Below, piece after piece: positions 420 to 19,098 of a stretch of 60,001 nt of DNA. The notes beneath the pieces were generated by a model. That model saw only the letters and a list, made by a program, of their open reading frames with translations. It did no database searches and had not been told where the DNA came from. Made by a program: the position numbers and the translations under genes. This DNA is from Candidatus Methanoperedens nitratireducens (lineage in GTDB: Archaea > Halobacteriota > Methanosarcinia > Methanosarcinales > Methanoperedenaceae), in contig DYGR01000015.1 of NCBI GenBank assembly GCA_020724545.1, forward strand, positions 1-60,001, given 5' to 3'. Positions within the stretch are counted from its first letter, which is position 1; each line of letters opens with the position of its first letter.

Positions 420-476
420 AAGTTAGCATTTCTCATAATATGCACCACGACCTTTTCCTTTTTATTTAATCATTAT

Positions 477-1208
477 TCAATTGATCTTTCTTATTTTCCA
501 ATCTTTTCGCAACTCTGGGAATTTCTGGGAATCCCTGTCGCGGGTAAATCTTGTCGTGGTAGTCTCGCCAAGCATTGTCAGGATTAATTCTATATCATCC
601 ATGTGGTCTCTTAAATTTTCATTTTTCAATCCCTTTAATCGTTTATATTCGCTTGGGGTCAATCCGAAGGTCGCTCTGGAGATCTCAGCAGTCAGAATAG
701 AGTACTCCTGTTTGGAGCTTACACCTCTTTTATCCCACTCATCGGTCAGTTCATCTCTTATTGCTACTCCCCTTACTCTTTTCTCAATCCACTCATCAGA
801 ATAACCCTTTAATTTATAGATCTCTTTCATCCGTTTTTGGGCCAGCTCTGGATCTTCTATCTCCTGCACCCGTTCATAACCGACTTTAGCAAGCCATCTT
901 TTGAAAGGCTCCGCTTTTTTTGAAGGGATGGACTGAATTATCCTTAACATGGATTCAGTGTTAGCGCAATCTGTTTCGTATTTTTTGCCATCAGTCGAGG
1001 GCAATTTCAGTTGTCGACAAAATGTCGATAACTCGATTCCGCCTGACTCCACGTCACGTTTTTTCAGCCTATACCAGTAATCTTTTGGGTCAGCGCTGTC
1101 GGTCAAAACCCTTACAACATCAACCACTGAGAAATACCACTGGTCATCATGCCAGGTCCGTCTTATTTTAGTTCCCTCGAAAACAACAAGCGCGCCTTTT
1201 GAATCCAT
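477..1208 (-). CDS. Bro-N domain protein (BRO/DinD-like DNA-binding protein)
   Basis: A protein of 243 residues opening with a Bro-N domain (residues 1-100). The segment LVVFEGTKIRRTWHDDQWYF followed by SVVDVVRVLTDS is the usual start of this family, which binds DNA and is common in viruses, plasmids and defence islands. The C-terminal half is charged and helical and resembles the DinD-like partner region. An ATG at 1235 is possible, but the ATG at 1208 lies one base after the methylase stop and begins just before the conserved domain, so I prefer it. It is the last gene of the leftward helicase-methylase block and is probably co-transcribed. Its role there is unknown. Confidence 0.8.
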   Translation of the reverse strand: MDSKGALVVFEGTKIRRTWHDDQWYFSVVDVVRVLTDSADPKDYWYRLKKRDVESGGIELSTFCRQLKLPSTDGKKYETDCANTESMLRIIQSIPSKKAEPFKRWLAKVGYERVQEIEDPELAQKRMKEIYKLKGYSDEWIEKRVRGVAIRDELTDEWDKRGVSSKQEYSILTAEISRATFGLTPSEYKRLKGLKNENLRDHMDDIELILTMLGETTTTRFTRDRDSQKFPELRKDWKIRKIN

Positions 1209-1209
1209 G

Positions 1210-4200
1210 TTATTTTCTCTTATTAAAATTCTCAACGATGATTATCTCTTCGGGGGTCAGGTCGTATAATTTATAGACCAACTGGTCGATTTCTTTTTCT
1301 AAGGTTTTTACTCTGGCTTGTTTCTCTGAATTTTCGAAGTAATCGAGGTCTTTGGTGATAGAGAGGATTTGATTAATTATTTTAATAAAAGGTAGCTGTT
1401 GCTCTTTTTTGATAATTTTTATAGGTATTTCAGTAAGGGGCTTATAATATAATTCTAATAATTCTCCTTTTCTCTTCCCTCTAAAATATAACCAAATATA
1501 AAATAGCTTTGAATTCAATAGAGCTAAGATATATTTTAAATCAATATTGCTATTATTCTCTTTATTAGAAATAAAGTAAACATCAGCACTCGTGTACCAT
1601 GGCTCTTCGTTATAACCGAAATTGTTTTGATATGATCTATGAGGGCAAACAATTTTTGCTCCTTCAAAAATTACATTATTTCTTGCAGCAAAAATAACCC
1701 ACCATTTTCCTAATTTAAGTGCTGCTTGCATTTCTCCTCTATCTTTACTTCTTGATTTAATAATTTTTTCATATTTTAATAAATGATTTTTAATATTTAG
1801 ATAATTATCAATATTTAACTCTCTTGTTACATATATCAGGTTTTTTTTATTCTTTACTGAGTTTGTAAAATATCTGAAAATATCCGAATTTTTATAAAAA
1901 GGTTTGATAATATTTTTTTCATATTCATTTAAATTTAATGCAGCAACTTCAGAATCAGAAAGGACATATACTCCCTCTCCCTTTTGAATATGTTCGAGTT
2001 TTAAATCAATAATATGTCTATCAGTGACTTTATCAGCGCCTGTTAATAAACCTTGATTGACATTCTTAATTTGAATTAAAGGGGAAGATTCTTGTTTAAT
2101 TTTTCTTAATAACAATTCATAATCTTGGTTCGCATCATTTGATTCATTTCCTCTAAGTCTAATATAGTTATTTTCTCCATCATATAGGTCGCTTTGTTTT
2201 ACTGAAAAATACTTACTTTTTTTATCATTCCATGAGAGTATTGAGGAGATAATATTTGGTGCAGCAATTCCAATCCTACTAGTGATACAAGTCTCAGCAT
2301 TAAAATCGGGTTGGTGATTTTTCTCCAAGATAGTTATCATATTATGCTGTCCTTTCGCTGAATCAAAAATTTTAAGTTCGTTAAAATTTATAAGTTTTTT
2401 AATTATTGCCCTATTTTTAAAATCGGTTCTTAAATATAGCGCACCATCAGCAGTAATAAAATAATTAGTAGTAATAAATGAAATTGTTGCTTTTCTCTTA
2501 GCTAGATCTAAAGCTTTATGGAAGAAGAAATAAAATATATCCATCTTTCTTTTATAAAATCTCTTACCAAATTCACTAATTTTAATCTCCCGAAATATTT
2601 CTTTATAGCCTTTCTCTCCAACATAAGGCGGATTAGCAATCACTACATCAAATCCAGGATTTTCTCTCTGAAATATTTCTGAAAAATATAACTTCCATAA
2701 AAAGAAGGGTTTTGACTTGTTTTTCTTATATTGCTGGAGTCTAAGCATTGCGTTTTCATTGCCTTGTTCTTTCAATGTTTCTTCAATTAGCTCCCATTCA
2801 ATTTTATTAATCTCCTCAGCATGTTGTTTCTTTAATTTTCTATTCTGTTCATTAAAATAGAGTTTTTGTAATTTTTTAAATTTCCCTAATTTTTTTTGAG
2901 ACTCTTTTATTCTATTTTGATGTATCTGGTCAAAAGTAGATTGCTTTATATCCTCTTCAGGCATTGATAAAATTTTTTTCTTAGTTCTTTCAAGTTTCTT
3001 TAATTTTTTTTCAATTTCAGCCCTTCGCCCGTTATCCTTTTTTTTTCCCGTATAGATATCACCAAGTTCCTGATTTAATTCATCCATATCGTTTTTAATC
3101 TCTTCCAGCCGGGATGAGATGTCTTCAGGGATTTCTTCTAACAATTTCTCATCAAACAGCTTTACACCCTCGAATTCCTCCAATAAGCTGTTCCCGCACA
3201 TGATTTTATGATCCAGGTTGGGCAGGGGCTTAATTTTTGTCATATCCGTTTCATCAACAATCAAAGAAAGCCAGAACCGAAGCTTTGCAATGTCCACGGC
3301 TGATGAATCAATATCCACACCATACAGGCTGTTTTCTATCGTTTCTCTTTTGAGGTCGTAATTATTTCTTACATTTTTAAGCAAAAAAGATAAAATTGAT
3401 CTTGCTTTTACTATTTCATTCATCATGCCCATCGGGAAAGCGCCTGAACCTACAGCAGGGTCAACTATTTTTATATTCTTCAATAGATCATCGACTTTAT
3501 TGCAATTTTCTCTTATGGAAACAGGCAGATATTTTTCAAATACATCAGGATTACTGGTTAGTTGCTGTGCCAGATCGCCATGCTGTATGAAGGTCTCAAT
3601 ATCTTTTACTGAGATATCTGTATTTGTAGCAAGATAATTGATCAAACTCTGCTGGCACATATAATGAACGATTTCCCTTGGAGTATAGAATGCGCCTTTT
3701 GATTTTCTATCGGTCACATCCAGCAGATTCTCAAAAACCTTTCCAAGCATTTCAGGATCAACAGCGACCTCTTTATCTAACGGTTCGTCCTCTTTAACAG
3801 TGAAATTGAACCTGTCAAAAGTTTCAAGAATTCTTTCAAAAATCGAATTCTCTAATAAAATTGCAGGTCCTTTCCAATCATATTCATTTATGGGTTCAAA
3901 CAGACCGCCGTTCAAAAATGGGATTTTGCAATTGAACCTGCTGTAATAATCGTCATCACGCTCAGTCGCCAGAGCTTCATAAAATAAAGGTTCAAGTATG
4001 TCGTTAAAGAAATTATCATACGGAACAATTTCTTTATCAAATAATTTCCTGAGGAAATTCTTTGGACCACTTCCCCAATCCTTGAATTTACCTGTTTCTG
4101 GATTCCTGTCAACTCCAAGCCATCCTTTTTTCTGAAGGAAATAAATAAAAACTATCTGACCTAACAACTTTTTGGAAAAATCCACTGTTGAGATATTTTT

Positions 4201-4652
4201 ATCCACAAACTCTTTTTTTACATTTGGATTCTTTTCAATAATATTCTCTAACGATTCTTTTAATTCCAAAAATAATTCTTTGTATTCAGAAAAGAACTCC
4301 TTGGTAACATTCTCAATACTGAAGGACTCTTCGATATCTTCAAGAGTTGGATTTATACCTTCTTCCATCACAAGTTTCAGGAATTGTCTTCTGCAGGTAT
4401 GGTTGGGTTCATTTACACACACCAGATAAGAATATCTTTTAGCGGGAGTTAATTCTTTTGTGATTCTCCCATCTTTTGTCCTAAAACCTGATAAGAATCA
4501 ATGTGGCTACTAAATTCTGACCAGACTGGCCAAGTTCTCGGTGAGATTTCAAATTTGTTAAATAATTCTTTAATAAATATTGAGAATCTATTTATATCAA
4601 AATTAGTGTTAAAAGTCTCATCCAATAATTTTATTGCACGTTTTTCATCCAT
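1210..4652 (-). pseudogene. Eco57I-type adenine-specific DNA methyltransferase, frameshifted near the N-terminus
   Basis: This large N6-adenine methylase has a helical N-terminal region, a SAM-binding motif VDPAVGSGAF (about residue 320 of the main frame), catalytic NPPY (about 597), a long coiled-coil insert between them, and a C-terminal TaqI-like target-recognition region. The frame starting at 4652 reads 67 residues and stops. The main frame resumes at about 4465 with no ATG. Adding one T to the run TTTT at 4474-4477 restores a continuous protein of about 1147 residues whose joint reads GQKDGRITKELTPAKRYSYL. The start overlaps the end of the helicase gene by 8 bases. The indel could be real, phase-variable or a sequencing error. 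No nuclease motif is seen in this protein; the partner helicase carries the PLD domain. Confidence 0.85.
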
Positions 4653-7600
4653 TCTTATTACCTCTTATCAGATATTCCGAAAGTATAACTTCTTTAGGTC
4701 CGGATGTATCAGAAGAGCTGGTAACAATTGTTTTTTGGAATAACTCCGGAGCAATACTGGATTTAATTACTGCTAAAATCTTAAGAGGATTTGTTTCTCC
4801 TGTTGTTTCCTTCAATAATTTCTTGATGGTTGCTTTTGATATTGCTCCGTCCTGTAACAATGTCAGTACTTCATGGAGATAATCCTCATCGTCATCGGTA
4901 TATTCTTTTGATTTCTCTACCGCTTTTATCAACCTGAAAAGTCTGGTTTCTGCGCTTCTGCCACCAGAATGTTTTAACTCTTCTCCTTCATTAATAAATA
5001 CTGCATCAAATTCTTTTTTATTAGCTTCTAAATGTTTATAAAATTCCGCATCTAATTTCTCTTTTTTAGTATCTGCATCTACTTTTAGAATCTCAGCAGC
5101 TTTAAGGAAATCAACCTCTTCAACAAGATTTCCATTTGTTCTGAAAATTTTTCTTAATTTACCTTTGCGGAAGAATGTTAATACAGAATTATAATCTTCG
5201 GTATATTCTCTTGCTGTTCTGACTTTCTTAGGAAGTCTTTTTATTTTTTCAAATAAATCTTTATTATTATCTCTTATACCCCTTAAATAAATCAAATACT
5301 TCAATTCAGGGTCGTCTTCCTCATCCTCGCCAGTAAGGGTCTTTTTTGAATTCAATCTGCTAAAAAGGTCATGCGATTTAATTTCCTCATCTGTCAAAAG
5401 CCTTGCATCATTGCCAAGCATTTCGATAAATGCTTTGATTTTAGCCTCCGCAGCTTCTTTTAAGCTGATATTTTCATTAATAGGTCCGGCAGGGAAGAAA
5501 TTGTAAGTGTATATCTTATCAAACTTTGAATCTACCCTGTTTATGCGCCCTACTCTTTGCATCATTCTTGTTGGGTTCCAGGGAATATCGTAGTTTATAA
5601 CCACATTTGACCTGTGCAGGTTTACCCCTTCAGACAAAATCTCTGTAGAAATTAGAATCCGATAATCATCTTTTGGATGTCTTGCTCTTGCATCGAAATT
5701 TTCAAGTATTTTAGTTCGTATTGCTTCTCCTGAGATGCTGGAAAAAGATAATACTTTGTTATCAAATTTTGGATTTAGTTTATCTTCAAGATAAATGGCT
5801 GTCTCTTTCGATTCTGTAAAAACAATTAATTTATTTTGTCGTAGAATTTTATCCTTGGATAAAATTTCTATGAACCTGTCGAGTTTAGGATCTTTATCAA
5901 CATCACGCCATAAATCCCGAATTCCTTTTAAAGTCTCAAGATCGTTCTTTAAGTCGTTAATAAATTCTGGAGTGAAATCATTGGAAGAGTATTGATACAC
6001 CTTCTCTTCTTCAATTAATTGTTGGATTGCTTCTTCATCATCGCTCTCCAGGAATTCAAATACTTTATTAATATGCTTCTTACTCACATACACATTTCCT
6101 TTTCCATATTCTTTGAGGAACCTTTCATAAGAATAAATAAATCTTCCAACGGACTGCTTAAACGCAAAAAAACTGCTTTCAAGCCTTTTCAACAACATTG
6201 TTTTCATAAACCGTCTCATGTTTTTCTGAGACAATTCTTCCGGTTGTGTAACCCCTTCCTTAAGGTATAAAAGCGGAGTATATCTTGCATATTTAAACTC
6301 CTTTATGATCAATTCCAGAGTCTTGGTAAAGATCTTATCTAATTTCTCATCAAAATTATATATAACGGCTTCAGGATCGTTAACCTCTGGAAATTTCAAA
6401 TTTTGTTTTTTAAGATCCTTCTCATAGTATCTTACAATATTATTCCTGGTTCTTCGTACCATTAAATAACTTAAGACATTTTTACGAATATCGTCTGCAT
6501 TTTCCTGTATTATTTTTAGATATTCTTCCTTGTCTTTTTGTCTATCCAATCCCTTTAACCTGTTCTGAAGTTTTACAAAATACTTCTCCAGATCCCGTAC
6601 CTTTGGATTAGGCAATGTTGATTTATGAGCGTTCTGAAATAGTTTTATCTGGCTAAGGATATCCAGAGGAGTATTATTAAGTGGTGTGGCGGAAACCAGA
6701 ATCACTCTCTTACCCCTGCATATCTGGAACAACTTTTCATACATCTGTGTAGTTTCAGTTCTAAAACGATGTGCTTCATCAATAAACACATTTTTATATT
6801 TATCAATTCCTCTCTCGATCAACTTATCCAGCTTGCCAATTGACTCAAACTCTGTCTGTCGGACTCCAAAATCTGCGAAAACATTAGGCCATGAACCAGG
6901 ATTATCTTTTTCGAGTAGAACCGGCGGTGCAATAACTAAATTTCTTCCATCTAACTGTTGAGCAAGCATGGCAGAAATGTATGTTTTGCCTAACCCGACA
7001 ACATCTGATATAAAAACGCCGCCATACTCTTCAAGCTTCATCTTTGCATCTCTAACAGCATCCTTCTGGTATTCTAAATCCATAAAGCTCTCAGGAACAT
7101 AATCTTTAAAGAGCTCCTCTTTATCCAGGTTGATTTTTTCCTTAAGATATTCGTAAAGAAATTTTAAGTATAGTTGATAAGGAGTGATCGAATCATTTAA
7201 CCATGTCTTTTCTTTGATGATTTCAACATAGTTTTCAGAAACATCAACGGAATTTTCCCATAATTCGTTAAATTTCTTCAAAGCAAAATCATAATCAGAC
7301 CTGTTCTTTAATTCAACATTAAACTCAATATTGTCTCTTAAGCCTGCTTTTGTAAAATTACTTGAACCAGTGATTACTCTTCCAACATCTCTATCCCCTT
7401 CTTTAAAAGTCATAATATATACTTTGGCATGAATGGTTTCGGCAGGAAAAACGCGTATCTTTAATTTTCCAGACCTGAGCCATTCTATGAATTTCTTAAC
7501 GCCCTCTTCAACTTCAAATGAATCTTTAGAGGTTTCCATTTCATTTACAAGTCGATTTGAAAATTCGTCCTTTGTTTCTTTGTGGGATAATTGCAAGATT

Positions 7601-7839
7601 TGCTGATTTTCTTTTTTTGCTTCCTGAATAAGGTCAAAGGTCTCTTTATTAGTACTTATTCCAATTAATATCCTGATATTTTCAGTTTTTTCTAGTGATT
7701 TATAAAGAGAATAAAAACCGCTTGTATAGAAATATCCAACTAAACAATCGAAAAATTGGGTATCTTTAATTAGAGTGGAAAATCTATTTAATAGATTATC
7801 ATTATTCTCATTAGTTATAAAAGTTAAATCGGTGGCCAT
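4645..7839 (-). CDS. PLD-nuclease/SNF2-type helicase fusion
   Basis: A protein of 1064 residues. Residues 20-190 form a phospholipase D-like domain with HAKVYIMTF (about 137) and GSSNFTKAGL (about 158), the HKD-type catalytic signature. A superfamily 2 helicase follows, with motif I DVVGLGKT (about 280), motif II DEAH (about 354), motif III SATPLNN and motif VI QRVGRINRV. The translocase resembles DISARM DrmD in overall plan, here fused to a DrmC-like PLD domain. The gene overlaps the following methylase start by 8 bases, indicating translational coupling. The likely role is a restriction-type effector that moves along foreign DNA and cleaves it; this is inferred from domains and neighbours. 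Confidence 0.85.
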   Translation of the reverse strand: MATDLTFITNENNDNLLNRFSTLIKDTQFFDCLVGYFYTSGFYSLYKSLEKTENIRILIGISTNKETFDLIQEAKKENQQILQLSHKETKDEFSNRLVNEMETSKDSFEVEEGVKKFIEWLRSGKLKIRVFPAETIHAKVYIMTFKEGDRDVGRVITGSSNFTKAGLRDNIEFNVELKNRSDYDFALKKFNELWENSVDVSENYVEIIKEKTWLNDSITPYQLYLKFLYEYLKEKINLDKEELFKDYVPESFMDLEYQKDAVRDAKMKLEEYGGVFISDVVGLGKTYISAMLAQQLDGRNLVIAPPVLLEKDNPGSWPNVFADFGVRQTEFESIGKLDKLIERGIDKYKNVFIDEAHRFRTETTQMYEKLFQICRGKRVILVSATPLNNTPLDILSQIKLFQNAHKSTLPNPKVRDLEKYFVKLQNRLKGLDRQKDKEEYLKIIQENADDIRKNVLSYLMVRRTRNNIVRYYEKDLKKQNLKFPEVNDPEAVIYNFDEKLDKIFTKTLELIIKEFKYARYTPLLYLKEGVTQPEELSQKNMRRFMKTMLLKRLESSFFAFKQSVGRFIYSYERFLKEYGKGNVYVSKKHINKVFEFLESDDEEAIQQLIEEEKVYQYSSNDFTPEFINDLKNDLETLKGIRDLWRDVDKDPKLDRFIEILSKDKILRQNKLIVFTESKETAIYLEDKLNPKFDNKVLSFSSISGEAIRTKILENFDARARHPKDDYRILISTEILSEGVNLHRSNVVINYDIPWNPTRMMQRVGRINRVDSKFDKIYTYNFFPAGPINENISLKEAAEAKIKAFIEMLGNDARLLTDEEIKSHDLFSRLNSKKTLTGEDEEDDPELKYLIYLRGIRDNNKDLFEKIKRLPKKVRTAREYTEDYNSVLTFFRKGKLRKIFRTNGNLVEEVDFLKAAEILKVDADTKKEKLDAEFYKHLEANKKEFDAVFINEGEELKHSGGRSAETRLFRLIKAVEKSKEYTDDDEDYLHEVLTLLQDGAISKATIKKLLKETTGETNPLKILAVIKSSIAPELFQKTIVTSSSDTSGPKEVILSEYLIRGNKNG

Positions 7840-7888
7840 CAGGAATGTTCTTCCTTTGATATTTCAAATTTCCTTCTCTCATGACCAA

Positions 7889-8068
7889 TTATTTTTTCTT
7901 GAATACATTTAACCCGACTTTGATAGCTTCTTTGCCCGGTACAGGCTGATTGCCTTCAGACGAGGCGACAATAATCGTTTTCCCTGATGATGAAGGGCCG
8001 AATTCTTTAGTTAAATCCACCCTGATTGTTAAGATATTTCCATCAATCGACATTTCAACGTTCTTCAT
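7889..8068 (-). CDS. small conserved protein of unknown function (59 aa)
   Basis: The frame starts MKNVEMSIDGNILTI and contains KEFGPSSSGKTIIVAS, ending GLNVFKKK. The ATG is preceded by a GGAG ribosome binding site. Short proteins of this pattern recur in methanogens and many bacteria without assigned function; I know no named domain. It reads in the same direction as the helicase-methylase block, 50 bases upstream of it, so it could be the first gene of that transcript or an unrelated neighbour. Confidence 0.8.
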   Translation of the reverse strand: MKNVEMSIDGNILTIRVDLTKEFGPSSSGKTIIVASSEGNQPVPGKEAIKVGLNVFKKK

Positions 8069-8461: not shown

Positions 8462-8800
8462 TTAGCCCATAACAACCATGACATTCCCAATATGATCGCC
8501 CATAGGTGGGCAGCCCATCATAGCACCAGGCATCATCTGTCCGGGCATCATCTGTCCGGGCATCATCTGTCCGGGCATCATCTGTCCAGGCATCATCTGT
8601 CCGGGCTTCATCTGTTCAGGCATCATCTGTCCAGGCATCATGTGACCAGGTGGACAGCCCTTCATAGTACCAGGCATCATCTGCCCGGGCGGACAGCTCT
8701 GAGGATTATCGACGTTTTCGCTGCTTACTTCAGCCATAGCAGGCAGCGCGATTACCAGTACAGCAGATATTAGTGACATCAATATTAACATCTTTTTCAC
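8462..8800 (-). CDS. secreted methionine-rich repeat protein
   Basis: A protein of 112 residues with an N-terminal signal peptide (hydrophobic LILMSLISAVLVIALPAMA) and a mature region dominated by tandem five-residue units QMMPG, with variants HMMPG, QMMPE and QMKPG, flanked by three Cys in CPPG or GCPPM contexts. The repeat is encoded by a 15-base tandem unit. I chose the GTG at 8800 because a GGGGGTGA ribosome binding site sits five bases before it; the in-frame GTG at 8809 overlaps that site. Methionine-rich extracytoplasmic segments bind soft metals such as Cu(I) in known proteins, so metal binding is plausible but inferred. It lies just downstream of a P-type ATPase read the same way. 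Confidence 0.8.
   Translation of the reverse strand: MKKMLILMSLISAVLVIALPAMAEVSSENVDNPQSCPPGQMMPGTMKGCPPGHMMPGQMMPEQMKPGQMMPGQMMPGQMMPGQMMPGQMMPGAMMGCPPMGDHIGNVMVVMG
8522..8660. repeat. 15-bp tandem repeat encoding PGQMM units
   Basis: A unit close to GGGCATCATCTGTCC on the plus strand is repeated about eight times with few changes. It is in frame and produces the QMMPG repeats, so copy number can change without shifting the frame. Confidence 0.85.
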
Positions 8801-8833
8801 TATACTCACCCCCTCTCATGTTGTTTATACGAT

Positions 8834-14388: not shown

Positions 14389-15162
14389 TTAAATTTTTTC
14401 CCATACTGCACATTTAAGTCGCTGCTTTGCTAATTCACAATAATTTTGGTCAATCTCTATTCCAGTTCCTGTTCTGCCAGTTTCAAAGCAAGCAATAAGC
14501 GTAGTCCCACTGCCAAGGAATGGATCAAGAACAGTATCACCAACAAAACTAAATAACTTTATGCATCTTCTGGGTAACTCAACTGGAAATGGTGCAGGAT
14601 GACCCACTCTTTTTTTACTCTCTCCGTTAAAGTTCCAGACCCCATTCGTCCATCCCATGAATTCTTCTCTGCTTATATCCGATTTTTGACTCCCACCTGT
14701 CTTTTTCCATTTATTTTTATAAAGGACGATAATAACTTCAACAGGTACTATAACAAATGGAGCAGATGCAGATAGCCATGAACCCCATGCTGTCCTTCTA
14801 GAAATATTCTGTTCATTCCATATAATAGTGGTATGATATTTCCAACCAGCCTTTTTTGCAATTGTAGTAATATCAGCATATACACTCTGCTGTCCACCTT
14901 TGTTTTTATCAAGAGGTATATTCAAACACAGTCGCCCATCATCCTTTGCAAATTCGTAACATCTAGTAATCCAATCCTGAGTAAAAATCAAATAATCCTC
15001 ATAAGATATTTTATCATTATGAGAATTATATTTAATATCTACATTATATGGTGGAGAGGTAACAATTAAATCAATAGTTTCATGTGGTATGCAGTCTGTT
15101 TTTAAGATATCATCGTTATAAATTGAAACTGAATCTGCATTGTAGTAAAGTTTAGTATCCAT
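14389..15162 (-). CDS. site-specific DNA methyltransferase (beta class, SPPY)
   Basis: A 257-residue SAM-dependent methylase. The catalytic motif TSPPYNV is near residue 35 and the SAM motif DPFLGSGTTL near the C-terminus, the beta-class order used by N4-cytosine and N6-adenine methylases. SPPY favours N4-cytosine, but the base is not decided by sequence. No restriction enzyme gene is adjacent, so it is an orphan methylase unless the truncated RAMA protein at 18114-19098 was once its partner. It lies immediately beyond the 3' end of tRNA-Ile, a typical place for inserted DNA. Confidence 0.9.
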   Translation of the reverse strand: MDTKLYYNADSVSIYNDDILKTDCIPHETIDLIVTSPPYNVDIKYNSHNDKISYEDYLIFTQDWITRCYEFAKDDGRLCLNIPLDKNKGGQQSVYADITTIAKKAGWKYHTTIIWNEQNISRRTAWGSWLSASAPFVIVPVEVIIVLYKNKWKKTGGSQKSDISREEFMGWTNGVWNFNGESKKRVGHPAPFPVELPRRCIKLFSFVGDTVLDPFLGSGTTLIACFETGRTGTGIEIDQNYCELAKQRLKCAVWEKI

Positions 15163-15205
15163 TTTGATCTCCTCTCGATTGCCTGCTTTTTCTCAAAAAT
15201 CAATA

Positions 15206-15279
15206 TGGGCCCGCTGCGATTTGAACGCAGGACCTCTCGGTTATCAGCCGAGCGCTCCACCTGGCTAAGCTACGGGCCC
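15206..15279 (-). tRNA. tRNA-Ile (GAT)
   Basis: Read on the minus strand from 15279: acceptor GGGCCCG pairs with CGGGCCC, the anticodon arm is CTCGG-CTGATAA-CCGAG with anticodon GAT, the T loop is TTCAAAT and the discriminator base is A. No intron and no encoded CCA are seen. Confidence 0.95.
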
Positions 15280-15377
15280 GGAACTATCGCCAATATAACG
15301 GCATGTGATTTAAATCTTATCTTTAAGTCAGTACTTCCGCAAGTAATAGAGAGATAGATTAGGCCTTTGATATCTTT

Positions 15378-15643
15378 GTGTACACATTAAAGATAAAGCC
15401 TGATCTTGAGAAGGCCCTCAAGAAGTTTGTGAAAAAAACAGGAAACAGGTTGAGATTATTCTTAAAAAAATCGATAAAATCTTGTTGAACCCCCACAGAT
15501 ATAAGAATCTTCGTGCACCTTTGAATGATTGGAAAAGAGTCCATGTGGATAAACATTTCGTGTTAATTTTTTCTGTTGATGAGGAATCAAAGACCGTCAC
15601 ACTGGAAGATTATGACCATCACGATAATATCTATAAACATTAA
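15378..15643 (+). pseudogene. RelE/ParE-family toxin, frameshifted
   Basis: The first frame reads YTLKIKPDLEKALKKFVKK and then runs out of family pattern to a stop. A second frame supplies KQVEIILKKIDKILLNPHRY, followed by a C-terminus with DWKRVHVDKHFVLIFSVDE and TVTLEDYDHHDNIY. Adding one A to the run of seven A at 15433-15439 joins them into an 88-residue RelE-type mRNA interferase starting at GTG 15378. No antitoxin gene is recognisable next to it. It may be an inactivated orphan toxin or a sequencing error. Confidence 0.75.
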
Positions 15644-16004
15644 CGTGTTTAAATTATTTAATTTAAACCAGCCCCATTCTCCTCAACGTTCAGGTACTCC
15701 GCACAATGCTCACAGCACTGTACTACCTGTTCCCTTTACGCAGGAGCAGACCTGCTCAGTGGGATTCTAACCTGTGGATATCCGCTGCTGTTTTGCGTTT
15801 TTTCAGCGTTTTCTTCAGGTGTCCTTGTTGTCATACTCTCTCCCTTGTGTTTCCAGGTACACCGTCACGCATGAGTGTTTCTATCGTTCATACGTTATTT
15901 TGGCGTTTACCAGAAGGGGAGGCATGAAATAATACTGTATCGGATTATTCTAAATTTAACCGATACCGATATATACTCTAATGTCATATCGGATATGTTA
16001 AATT
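15644..16004. other. intergenic region: repeat copy A and Fic promoter
   Basis: This stretch holds the first copy of a diverged direct repeat (about 15680-15865, matched at 17165-17345) and, from 15935, the putative operator cluster in front of the Fic gene. No intact gene is seen. Confidence 0.6.
15680..15865 (-). repeat. diverged direct repeat, copy A
   Basis: It is about 80 percent similar to 17165-17345, sharing segments such as TTTACGCAGGAGCAGACCTG and GCGTTTTCTTCAGGTGTCC. On the minus strand both copies can encode a short peptide containing RTPEENA, YPQV and RSAPA, with the same stop. It is likely the remnant of a mobile element or duplicated gene end. Confidence 0.65.
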
Positions 16005-16025
16005 ATGTCCAATACCGATATATCA
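15936..16025 (+). promoter_or_regulatory. repeated ATACCGATAT/TATCGGAT sites at the Fic start
   Basis: Four related sites lie within 90 bases: TATCGGATTA (about 15938), ATACCGATATAT (about 15964), CATATCGGATATG (15985-15997) and ATACCGATATAT (about 16012, inside the first Fic codons). Two are direct and two inverted. They overlap the start region and could bind the C-terminal helix-turn-helix of the Fic protein for autoregulation, which is an inference. Confidence 0.5.
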
Positions 16026-16928
16026 TTATTTCAGGAAAAGCTTCTTTCACGCATAAATGAAAAAATGCATAAGCTTAACTCACTTCGCCCTCTTCCAGCC
16101 GATGCTGTAAAAAAGATGCATGAAGAGATGAGGCTGCTGCATACATATCACTCAAATGCAATAGAGGGGAATACTCTGACACTCCCGGAGACAAAACTTG
16201 TTCTTGAAGAAGGTATTACTATCGGTGGAAAATCACTACGTGAGCACCTTGAAGCAACAAATAACGCCAAAGCATTCGATTTAATAGAGGATATTGCAAA
16301 GAAGAAAAAGACGATAGACCATGTTATAATTCAGAAGATTCATGAAGTAGTTACAGCAGGCATTCTGGAGGATGCTGGAAAATATCGTACCAAGAACGTC
16401 AGAATAACTGGCTCGGCAAAAACTCCGCCTGACTGGTCAAAAATAACTAAATTGATGGATGAGCTTATTGAAAAAATTCCCCAATATAAAAGGCATCCTG
16501 TTGAGGTCGCTGCTCGCCTTCACCATAGATTCGTTGAGATCCATCCATTCATAGATGGCAATGGTAGAGTGTCTCGTCTGCTCACCAACCTGTATTTAAT
16601 TGCTCAGGGTTATCCTCCAATAGTTCTCAAAATAGAGGATAGAGGAAAATATTACAGGTTCCTGAGAGCAGCGGATGCAGGAAATCCCGGTCTATTTGTC
16701 AATTTCGTTGCAAAGGCTGTAGATGAGAGCCTAACGATGTATCTTTCTATCTTCGGTGGAGTTAATGAACTGCTGCCACTCAAAGAACTTGCTGAAAATA
16801 CACCTTATTCTCAAGAATATCTGAGTCTAAGAGCAAGGCAGGGTGTTCTGGATGCGGTAAAAATAGGGAAGATATGGTATTCATCAAGACATGCAATAGA
16901 ACAATATCTATCTGAACATGGCAAATGA
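16005..16928 (+). CDS. Fic-family protein (AMP-transferase type) with C-terminal HTH
   Basis: A 307-residue protein. The Fic core motif HPFIDGNGRVSRLL (about residue 180) carries the catalytic His and the phosphate-binding Asp/Asn/Gly/Arg. An N-terminal inhibitory helix HSNAIEGNTL (about residue 50) marks a class II, self-inhibited Fic. The C-terminal 60 residues form a winged-helix-like segment (LKELAENTPYSQEYLSLRAR). Such proteins usually transfer AMP from ATP to target hydroxyl groups; the target is unknown. It stands between two diverged direct repeats, so it may have arrived as cargo. Confidence 0.92.
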   Translation: MSNTDISLFQEKLLSRINEKMHKLNSLRPLPADAVKKMHEEMRLLHTYHSNAIEGNTLTLPETKLVLEEGITIGGKSLREHLEATNNAKAFDLIEDIAKKKKTIDHVIIQKIHEVVTAGILEDAGKYRTKNVRITGSAKTPPDWSKITKLMDELIEKIPQYKRHPVEVAARLHHRFVEIHPFIDGNGRVSRLLTNLYLIAQGYPPIVLKIEDRGKYYRFLRAADAGNPGLFVNFVAKAVDESLTMYLSIFGGVNELLPLKELAENTPYSQEYLSLRARQGVLDAVKIGKIWYSSRHAIEQYLSEHGK

Positions 16929-17475
16929 TAGTGGTTTATCATGCCCTGTATAGTTTAATTTGTGCCCCAAATTTTAGCGCCACAGTTGCTATTCAGGCTC
17001 AAGATTATCTAACGGATGTACGCAACCCCTGTCGCCTTCAGTATTCCCGTATGCAGCTTTCGTCTGGCGCATCCCTTTGCAGGAGATGGATTCATTCAGT
17101 AATGAACAAAGAGAAAACAGCCCCATTTCACCGAACAATTTCTTTGCTGTGCCGTCCTTGAAATCCGATATTCAGGTACTCTGCACAGTGCTCACAGCAC
17201 CGCTCTACCTGTTTTCTTTACGCAGGAGCAGACCTGCGCAGCGGTATTTTAACCTGTGGATATACGCTGCTGATTTGTGTTTTCCCAGCGTTTTCTTCAG
17301 GTGTCCTGTCTATCATGCTTTCTCTCTTGTGTTTCGAGGCACGCCGGTCATGGACTCTGCACTGGAAGGTGCGGAGCATCATGGCGTGGGTGCATGAGGG
17401 CATCTATCGCTTATTTATTGCTAAGGCATAAATCGACAAAAAGGGGCACGAAAATAACATAGGTATGAGTTCTCC
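16929..17475. other. intergenic region with repeat copy B
   Basis: No intact gene is seen. It contains the second copy of the direct repeat and AT-rich sequence leading to the toxin-antitoxin promoter. Confidence 0.6.
17165..17345 (-). repeat. diverged direct repeat, copy B
   Basis: It matches copy A at about 15680-15865 at roughly 80 percent. The minus strand encodes a short frame with RTPEENAGKTQISSVYPQV ending in RSAPA and a stop, conserved relative to copy A. Together the copies bracket the Fic gene. Confidence 0.65.
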
Positions 17476-17535
17476 TTGAAATACTTCTCAATCATGTTTT
17501 TATATATGCATATCGTAAAGATGTTAATAAACATG

Positions 17536-17724
17536 ATGAATTTAGAAACCGAAGTAAGGGATATAAAGCGGTATGTAATCGAGATTTCGAAAAAGGTTGA
17601 TGAGCTTTTATACGAAAAAGAAATCGTTTCGTTGATGAAGCTTTCCGAAAAGTCATTATCAAGTTTCTTTGAGAATGAGCCGGATATTTATAAAATAGCG
17701 GATTTAAAGGTCAGATATAAATGA
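17536..17724 (+). CDS. putative antitoxin of the MazF/PemK-type pair
   Basis: A 62-residue acidic, helical protein (NLETEVRDIKRYVIEISKKV) overlapping the toxin start by four bases (ATGA), the normal arrangement for antitoxin and toxin. Several ATG codons lie upstream; those at 17533 and 17536 follow a TATA-like TTTTTATATATGC (about 17496-17508) by about 25 bases, which suggests a nearly leaderless start. No named antitoxin family is recognised, so the role rests on its neighbour. Confidence 0.65.
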   Translation: MNLETEVRDIKRYVIEISKKVDELLYEKEIVSLMKLSEKSLSSFFENEPDIYKIADLKVRYK

Positions 17725-18050
17725 AAGGAAAAATAGTGCTTGTGCCTTTTCCATTTACTGATTTAACCGCTGCAAAGCTTAGACCGGCTTTAGTGCTATA
17801 CGAAGGCGATAAAGATGTAATCATGGCATTTATTTCCTCAAAAATACCATCTGAACTTTCAGACGTGGATGTTTTGATAACAAAGAATCATTCTGGCTTT
17901 AGAATTGCAGGGTTGAAAGTTGATTCGGTCATAAAGCTTGATAAGATCGCAACGGTGCTGAAAGATTTAATTGTGGGTGAGATTGGAGAAACTAATGAAG
18001 AGCTAAGGAAAGAAGTGAATCTAAAACTAAAAAATATACTGGAGATATAG
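17721..18050 (+). CDS. MazF/PemK-family toxin
   Basis: A 109-residue endoribonuclease-type toxin. The opening KGKIVLVPFPFTDLTAAKLRPALVL has the family pattern (VPFPFTDL, K-RPALVL), and VDSVIKLDKIATVLKDLIVG matches the C-terminal core. Related enzymes cut mRNA when the antitoxin is degraded. It overlaps the upstream antitoxin by four bases. Confidence 0.88.
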   Translation: MKGKIVLVPFPFTDLTAAKLRPALVLYEGDKDVIMAFISSKIPSELSDVDVLITKNHSGFRIAGLKVDSVIKLDKIATVLKDLIVGEIGETNEELRKEVNLKLKNILEI

Positions 18051-18113
18051 TGCAAAACTGTTACTTAACAAATAACGCAGAAAAGCGTATAATTTATGTA
18101 GTATAAAATACAG

Positions 18114-19098
18114 CTAATAATTATTTTCTCTTAATTCACTTAACAAATGCTCTTTCCCGTTTTCATCTTTGAATTTCCAAAAAACCCAACCGTTACAACT
18201 TGTTTTAGTTATTGCCATACAAGCAGCTGACGGTGAAATATAAACTATTCCATTGTAAATAATCTTATGTTGCGAATAATATGTTGCTTTATAAAATTCT
18301 TTTTTATGACTGGCAAAAATTTCTATTTCTCCTTCTTTAACTTCAAAATCTGGAGTTACATCTTCGTCAAAAGTTGGCATTTCTGTTGATAAATTCCCTT
18401 CTTTCAAGGTCCAAATTCCTCTACCAACTCTTGCAAATCTTTTATCTGTGCACATGTTAGCATTAACACCTCTTTCAGGTGTTTTTCCAGTTGTTTTATA
18501 ACCTATTTCTTCCATTCTCTTCCAAATGTCTATATAGTGCATTGGGTTGTCTGATATTTTTAAAATTTCATACGCCAAATCTGCCATAGACTTTTCTGGA
18601 TTTAATCCAGAAAATTCAGAAGTATCCAGTACTTTTGTGTCTTTATTAGGCTGAGCAATCCTTTTTTCTATAATTGGCAATCTATATTTTTCTTTTAATT
18701 TTCTAATATCTTCTTCTTTATTGTTTTTCAAATCAAGAATCTTTTTATCTTTTTCAGAAATATGAGTTTTAATTTCACCGATTTTATCTTCTAAAATTTT
18801 TCTTTCATTTAAGATTTCTTCTTCTTTATTTTTATAATTGCTCGTTAATGATTCAATCTCTTTCTTTGCATTTTTAATTTCATTCTCTCTTTCTTGGATA
18901 TAATCATCTAAATTTTCATTATCTAAATTTTCTTTTGAGAGTAATTTTTCCAATCGTTCTATAGTTTCATTATTATTTAAGTCAACTCTTTTTATTGAAT
19001 AAAGCAAAGTATCCGAAAAGTTAGAAACGGTTCTCCAAAAAGGAGAGTAAAATCTGATATCTTCTCCGTTAGAGATTATTGCAAGTAGAGGTCTTATA
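18114..19098 (-). pseudogene. HARE-HTH/RAMA protein truncated at its N-terminus (restriction-type)
   Basis: From an in-frame stop just beyond 19098 the frame reads PLLAIISNGEDIRFYSPF, which resembles the end of an HsdR-N nuclease domain. It continues into a coiled coil (about 18710-18960), a HARE-HTH domain (SMADLAYEILKISDNPMHYI to RVGRGIWTLKEG) and a C-terminal RAMA domain (YNGIVYISPSAACMAI, CNGWVFWKFKDENG). RAMA domains are linked to restriction and methylation systems and are thought to read modified DNA. The first ATG-like start (19007) leaves out the nuclease remnant. The break abuts an IS1634-like relic, so a transposition or deletion probably removed the N-terminus. Confidence 0.75.

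Follow-up and report, generated by a model that had tools for sequence, protein, structure and literature searches.

Several of the described systems closest to the one considered here combine a PLD (HKD-type) nuclease with an SF2 motor. SauUSI (PDB 7clg) joins a PLD nuclease to an SF2 motor, translocates on DNA at the expense of ATP, dimerizes through its nuclease domains and shreds the DNA between its sites; it reads methylated DNA by a target domain of its own, without a methylase partner (PMC7913695). HKD domains fused to SF2 helicases are known from BREX-related and Dnd-linked systems that also have methylases (PMC12839542, PMC10853773), and with other partners elsewhere (PMC10853773, PMC2292703). 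Type-2 BREX-related (BR) systems place an HKD nuclease N-terminal to a Swi2/Snf2 helicase beside an N6-methyltransferase, and have in addition a DUF499 ATPase and DUF3780 of their own (PMC12839542). In the 7.6-kb Pin17FIII locus of Prevotella intermedia 17F, methylase genes stand beside a helicase of the SNF2/RAD54 family, and one gene was shown to put N6-methyladenine (m6A) on GGYGAB (PMC5608340). Here we analyzed 60,001 nucleotides (nt) of Candidatus Methanoperedens nitratireducens (GenBank GCA_020724545.1, contig DYGR01000015.1, from position 1; the window), in which a block at 477-8068 encodes a PLD-SNF2 protein (HEL) and an N6-adenine methylase (MT) that quite likely form a two-subunit, ATP-dependent restriction-modification system. 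In transcription order on the minus strand the block runs from a 59-residue protein (S59) through HEL, a 67-codon open reading frame (ORF) and the MT body to a Bro-N protein.

HEL (4645-7839, minus strand, 1064 residues) carries the HKD-type PLD nuclease at its N-terminus (approximately residues 1-210, 7210-7839; Pfam PLDc_2 over residues 52-194 with an E-value of 1.6e-11, RE_NgoFVII over 105-205) and is otherwise an SNF2-type motor (SNF2-rel_dom, 4.1e-8; Helicase_C, 2.2e-19). The intact ORF and these matches bear out an earlier note on this DNA, made from the letters without database searches, which had read the PLD and SNF2 parts as one protein. With PADLOC, HEL matched C3a139, 'HKD+Snf2', at 137 bits. 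Residues H137, K139, S159, N161 and E172, the Walker A and DEAH motifs and QRxGRxxR were the same in all 50 members aligned. The best Foldseek match of a structure model of HEL (predicted local distance difference test, pLDDT, 80.9) was RapA, followed by SauUSI, with TM-scores by query length of 0.25 and 0.20, respectively; SauUSI was the sole PLD-helicase restriction enzyme among the 50 matches listed. The modeled fold supports the domain plan rather than a close shape.

The MT body (1210-4422, minus strand, 1070 residues) combines an Eco57I core (3.3e-27; N6_Mtase also matched) with a TaqI-like specificity domain (TaqI_C, 4.8e-11). Its DPAVGSG and NPPY motifs are intact, and DPAxGSG and NPP were kept in 35 of 35 members as well as in the window. 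The best PADLOC match was REase_MTase_IIG (PDLC03596, 497 bits), and the modeled MT of a relative (L032, pLDDT 79.5) matched the folds of CamA, BrxX/PglX, M.BseCI, MmeI and BpuSI, with TM-scores by target length of 0.72 for CamA and 0.45 for BrxX/PglX, the latter over 1123 alignment columns. The PADLOC label, the matches to MmeI and BpuSI, and residues E55, D68 and K76 of the N-terminal domain (shared by 28, 32 and 30, respectively, of the 35 members) would suit a type IIG enzyme with its own nuclease and with HEL as a helper. MT may hold a nuclease in its N-terminal domain, but we consider this arrangement as a whole unlikely: the canonical D...(D/E)xK pattern was not seen among conserved columns 1-150, HEL holds an invariant PLD site, and a type IIG label does not by itself imply a nuclease, given that PglX enzymes were once listed as type IIG in REBASE (PMC12707154).

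The occurrence of HEL with MT was followed in the best 80 of 167 related stretches (55-77% identity) from one scan of a species-genome collection. MT or a piece of it lay downstream of HEL on the same strand in 72 of these loci, the other eight having less than 2.5 kb of contig left, and in every one of the 58 loci with at least 2.5 kb downstream. The gap between the two genes was below 200 nt in 47 of the 72 (13 overlapping) and at least 200 nt in 25. No third constant gene was seen beside the pair among the related loci. The minimal restriction-like system that had been suspected from the letters is thus a conserved two-gene module; the accompanying view that it has few described relatives fails for occurrence, given the 167 stretches, and stands for the literature searched, in which there is one probable relative, Pin17FIII (PMC5608340). 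Phyla represented on the rows of a helicase tree (below) include Methanobacteriota, Bacteroidota, Chloroflexota, Acidobacteriota, Thermodesulfobacteriota, Elusimicrobiota, Atribacterota, Armatimonadota and Fidelibacterota, and distant members were found on plasmid-collection records of Prevotella, Parabacteroides, Thermus, Allomeiothermus and Thermococcus. The pair is rare in the window's own class, with HEL in 5 of 237 genomes (1e-100) and MT in 7 (1e-40), the genome under study included.

HEL and the methylase core also diverge in step. Across the 21 loci present in both alignments, distances between HEL sequences correlated with those between MT residues 1-560 (Mantel r = 0.86, with none of 2000 permutations as high) and were uncorrelated with those of the specificity region, MT 781-1060 (r = -0.01; mean distance 0.79, the alignment there being poor). 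A correlated core with a free specificity region would fit one machine with exchangeable specificity, which most likely sits in MT. At a Prevotella nigrescens locus (L095; NZ_CP082843.1, 10800-18835) a full MT is followed by two reversed pieces that match the C-terminal half of the MT profile and by an invertase of the Mpi family. A 47-nt inverted repeat, 96% complementary, joins MT to the nearer piece and a perfect 18-nt inverted repeat joins it to the farther one; both lie at or just before the stretch coding for NPPY, and by our reading the 47-nt repeat encodes GFDIVIGNPPY. We read this as a specificity half that may be switched by inversion. Such a cassette could, at a guess, account for the additional motifs that were reported as unassigned in P. 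intermedia 17F, whose Pin17FIII locus differs from the pair as described: it was filed as type IIG with two methylase genes, the helicase is merely mentioned, and a PLD domain is not named in the part of the report drawn on here (PMC5608340).

In the scheme that we propose, MT would recognize its site through the variable C-terminal specificity domain and put m6A on host DNA, which would mark self. On unmethylated foreign DNA, an MT-bound site would license the SNF2 motor of HEL; the motor would then translocate on ATP, and the PLD domain, probably dimeric, would cut when motors stall or collide, as in SauUSI. The accessory slot, which lies next to HEL and MT or separates them, can be filled by one gene or by a gene pair (Bro-N, AlbA_2, RhuM or a toxin-antitoxin pair), and its contents probably regulate or guard the system.

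Among restriction enzymes generally, those of type III and type ISP also have a methylase that carries specificity, with an SF2 motor that is separate or fused; their nuclease is of the PD-(D/E)XK or Mrr kind, not PLD, and they have either a different class of methylase or a single chain. HEL shares with type III enzymes a match to ResIII (6e-8) and differs in its PLD site, and MT matched Eco57I, N6_Mtase and TaqI_C, not N6_N4_Mtase. With respect to type I, no Methylase_S match was found in the block, the TaqI_C specificity domain lying inside MT. The parts of the broad class of ATP-dependent restriction-modification systems are encoded together here, namely a methylase, an SF2 motor and a nuclease with intact motifs, the N-terminal domain of the window MT being damaged (below). 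The three large genes of the block are matched by PADLOC C3a139, PDLC03596 and PDC-S13, but as separate models and not as one system.

The earlier note had labeled the block DISARM-like. A reduced DISARM, in which DrmC and DrmD were fused and DrmA and DrmB lost, would have the broad parts PLD, SNF2 and methylase in common with it, and there were partial profile matches to DrmD (up to 107 bits), DrmA (46), DrmC (24) and DrmMI (up to 111). Against the curated DrmD model NF038317, however, HEL reached 121 bits where the cut-off is 610. In a quick tree of 40 rows, several of them long-branched and the careful tree search unfinished, 23 PLD-MT helicases fell on one side of a branch with an SH-aLRT (Shimodaira-Hasegawa-like approximate likelihood ratio test) support of 100, with 14 DrmD-like rows, all below the curated DrmD cut-off, and three of family NF042964 opposite; the tree shows the HEL group as separate, not how the groups relate to each other. 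A HEL profile scored 391-757 bits on five of the six distant records (that of Allomeiothermus was left unscored) and at most 113 on DrmD-like and NF042964 helicases. As had been noted before, no DrmA- or DrmB-like gene was seen in the block; none was matched among the ten right-hand genes to 28 kb either, with the contig starting at window position 1 on the left and DrmA not having been searched genome-wide; the one PF09369 (DUF1998, DrmB) match of the genome is on contig C19, away from the block. A separate DrmC is likewise absent, the PLD being the N-terminus of HEL and DrmC models giving 17-24 bits only, and the two-gene form is standard among the relatives. The DISARM label was rejected on the profile scores, the quick tree and the missing DrmA and DrmB, and we regard a reduced DISARM as extremely unlikely.

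A BREX-related system of type-2 BR, centered on DUF499 and with a fused HKD-SNF2 helicase, would offer the described combination of such a helicase with an N6-methyltransferase (PMC12839542), and the L032 methylase model resembles BrxX/PglX. The only DUF499 match in the genome, however, is at C45:37776-39014 and not at this locus. HEL scored 140 bits against a cut-off of 1100 for NF042964, which we take to be the type-2 BR helicase, and the NF042964 group was separate in the quick tree. No block gene matched DUF3780 in the Pfam scan, no search aimed at that family having been made, and neither PglZ nor BrxC was matched in the block or the ten right-hand genes, MT merely resembling PglX. A BREX-related system at this locus was rejected, DUF499 not being there, and is in our judgment highly improbable. 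As a separate observation, contig C45 of the same genome (37776-54044) carries the DUF499 gene and, some 12 kb off, a DrmD-like SNF2 helicase (365 bits), which are possibly a BREX-related system.

Turning to the state of the window copy, the 5' end of the methylase gene (4449-4652, minus strand; 67 codons, equivalent to residues 1-66 of relatives) and the MT body lie in different frames. On the PDLC03596 profile the 67-residue ORF covers positions 1-57 and the long ORF covers 159 onward; in BLAST against L005 (68-69% identical in MT), residues 1-66 and then 150 onward were matched, and the long ORF, read from its GTG, begins at approximately residue 150 of relatives. By DNA alignment to L005, the nearest relative compared, the window has lost a net 217 nt, which is not a multiple of three, and this alignment and the profile gap (57-159) place the approximate out-of-frame junction at 4422-4475 on the minus strand. 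The deleted stretch falls in a conserved N-terminal domain, in which R84, R88, N89 and W115-R116-F117-S118 were identical in 35 of 35 members. An overlap of eight bases between methylase and helicase had been described previously; it is correct for the ATG at 4652 and incorrect for a continuous gene, as the 67-codon ORF ends at 4449. The sequence fits both a real mutation and an assembly error of the contig. The window copy of the system is probably impaired, because MT has lost most of the conserved N-terminal domain and the frame. If specificity sits in MT, loss of MT would silence the cutter rather than leave it toxic; the open HEL gene next to a broken MT agrees with that.

MT is a single ORF of at least 1000 residues in 41 of the 72 relatives that have it, is cut by the end of the locus in 21 and is split or short in 10; HEL is split in two of the 80 loci (L051, L061), and in one relative genome (G017) the HEL ORF is open over 1064 codons. 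The split and short genes and the out-of-frame deletion raise the possibility, which we entertain seriously without favoring it, that the window locus is a decaying remnant with neither restriction nor modification left. Pieces of the pair are found elsewhere: in L099 an ORF at 469-2274 (minus strand) fuses HEL profile positions 1-422 to the end of MT, as a large deletion within the pair would produce, and L169 and L176 carry short MT or HEL pieces after S59. Decay on that scale sits less well with the HEL, MT body and Bro-N ORFs of the window, which are open over 1064, 1070 and 243 codons, and the deletion may come from mis-assembly or be bypassed by a second translation start within MT.

Several points count against HEL and MT acting as a two-subunit restriction-modification system. 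MT is broken in the window, and in 10 of the 51 related loci on which its end is visible it is split or short, so that copies of the pair would often be impaired or mis-assembled. The modeled HEL resembles its fold matches only loosely, the root-mean-square deviation from SauUSI being 30.8 at the TM-score of 0.20. The type IIG REase-MTase label of PADLOC would place a second nuclease in MT. Correlated divergence can also be explained by joint transfer or common descent without interaction, and the relation to Pin17FIII is drawn from gene order and genus, not from sequence. Finally, the fixed gene order fails in the wider family, as in Thermus, Allomeiothermus and Thermococcus the methylase is upstream of HEL with one or more other genes between.

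The 25 wider gaps between HEL and MT differed in content. A gene of the AlbA_2 cluster (named from Pfam on one member, L031, with SLFN_AlbA_2 and HATPase_c_4) was present in 10 and Bro-N in eight; RhuM, DUF3800, DUF6922 with AbiEii, MNT with HepT, HigB with HTH, and a further pair (L070) occurred in one gap each, and one (L079) held no clear gene. Avs4 adjoins MT in L020. Among 112 neighbors (of 130) with at least 300 residues and no more than three genes away, GajA, AriA, Old, NsnB and RhuM models were each matched by three to five, as were Fic, YhcG, GmrSD and SIR2 models, some of the matches probably being to the same proteins; these are drawn from the 25 commonest families, so that PADLOC families in three or fewer members and Pfam families in two or fewer could be missed.

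The Bro-N/DinD-like protein of the window (477-1208, minus strand, 243 residues; Pfam Bro-N, 1.9e-10; PADLOC PDC-S13, 1.1e-107 and 358 bits) has its ATG at 1208, one base past the MT stop at 1210, and S59 (7889-8068, minus strand) opens the block 49 nt ahead of the HEL start, with no family match in Pfam, PADLOC or NCBIfam; both genes are present as the earlier note had described them. Bro-N was rejected as a specific partner of HEL: relatives of it were found in 44 of the 237 genomes of the class (1e-20, the genome under study included), far more than contain HEL, it fills the slot in only 8 of 72 HEL-MT loci, and it lies also within type I operons. Thirty Bro-N regions were viewed through BLAST clusters of their neighbors. 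Bro-N belongs to a set of accessory genes that can stand in for one another.

S59 was found in 26 of 99 relatives, the genome under study included, and in 43 of 374 genomes of the phylum, with no match in the plasmid collection. It was called in 28 of 30 sites from nearer relatives, which as close relatives are not independent, and the next gene was a restriction gene or part of one in seven: genes of the HsdR cluster (L152, L154, L156), Mod (L179) and HEL or part of it (L176-L178), at approximately 60-120 nt. Among the three HEL sites, L177 is cut by the contig end and L176 is a 67-residue piece; the type I clusters were named by Pfam on one member of each. In L164, Mod and Res are third and fourth after S59, and in L159 (3664-6273) a Ppl-like defense gene (138.6 bits) is second after it, followed further downstream by part of a Bro-N gene. 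Eight of the nearer-relative sites had all or part of Bro-N within 9 kb, and in L154 and L156 Bro-N is flanked by HsdS and HsdM. The remaining nearer-relative sites, such as those with an M42 peptidase, had no restriction gene. In 20 wider-phylum sites (S59 called in 18), no listed neighbor matched the restriction queries, and among 10 proteins from downstream that were scanned with Pfam there were two ResIII-HEAT helicases, a RecQ-HEAT helicase and one AlbA_2 protein, the others being unrelated. S59 as a general leader gene of restriction loci was upheld only in part, many sites being without a restriction gene.

Five S59 sites with RecQ upstream differ downstream: L154 and L156 carry type I genes, L155 and L158 carry all or part of Bro-N, and L162 reaches the contig end. 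This suggests a defense hotspot with changing contents. From these arrangements S59 and Bro-N appear linked to restriction loci at sites of changing content. The check proposed earlier, on linkage of the two genes elsewhere, revealed ties to several types of restriction system, so that neither gene is a core part of the pair.

No paper naming the HEL-MT pair was found in a search of open-license papers, one that surfaced (PMC12715929) dealing with other genes; in this literature the two-gene system, although shared by archaea and numerous phyla of bacteria, thus appears unnamed. We see in it a variant, so far little described, of a familiar defense, not a new kind. We suggest, tentatively, a broadly spread class of restriction-modification system in which a PLD-SNF2 subunit is locked to a PglX-like methylase with swappable specificity, by inversion in some Bacteroidota, and with a slot for regulator or toxin-antitoxin guard genes; in the archaeal order to which the window belongs, S59, a conserved gene, and Bro-N would frame sites at which HEL-MT, type I and type III systems swap. 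PADLOC files the methylase as a stand-alone type IIG enzyme, and recognizing the pair would correct such annotations and may link the GGYGAB motif to a likely cutter. The pair is also a compact system in which to test how an SNF2 motor drives a PLD nuclease, and the genes in the slot are candidate guards or regulators open to experiment.

The left surroundings of the block end at the contig start, window position 1 being the first base of contig C42 in a genome of 2.9 Mb in 88 contigs. To the right are genes for a P-type ATPase, an argininosuccinate lyase and Hsp20, and between the block and the P-type ATPase gene lies a small protein rich in MMPGQ repeats (8462-8809, minus strand). Further on, near a tRNA-Ile gene, the stretch 14389-19007 encodes a type II-like N6_N4 methylase at 14389-15162, a Fic protein at 16005-16928 and, at 18114-19007, a HARE-HTH protein that matches RAMA weakly; this group is perhaps a second small defense cluster.

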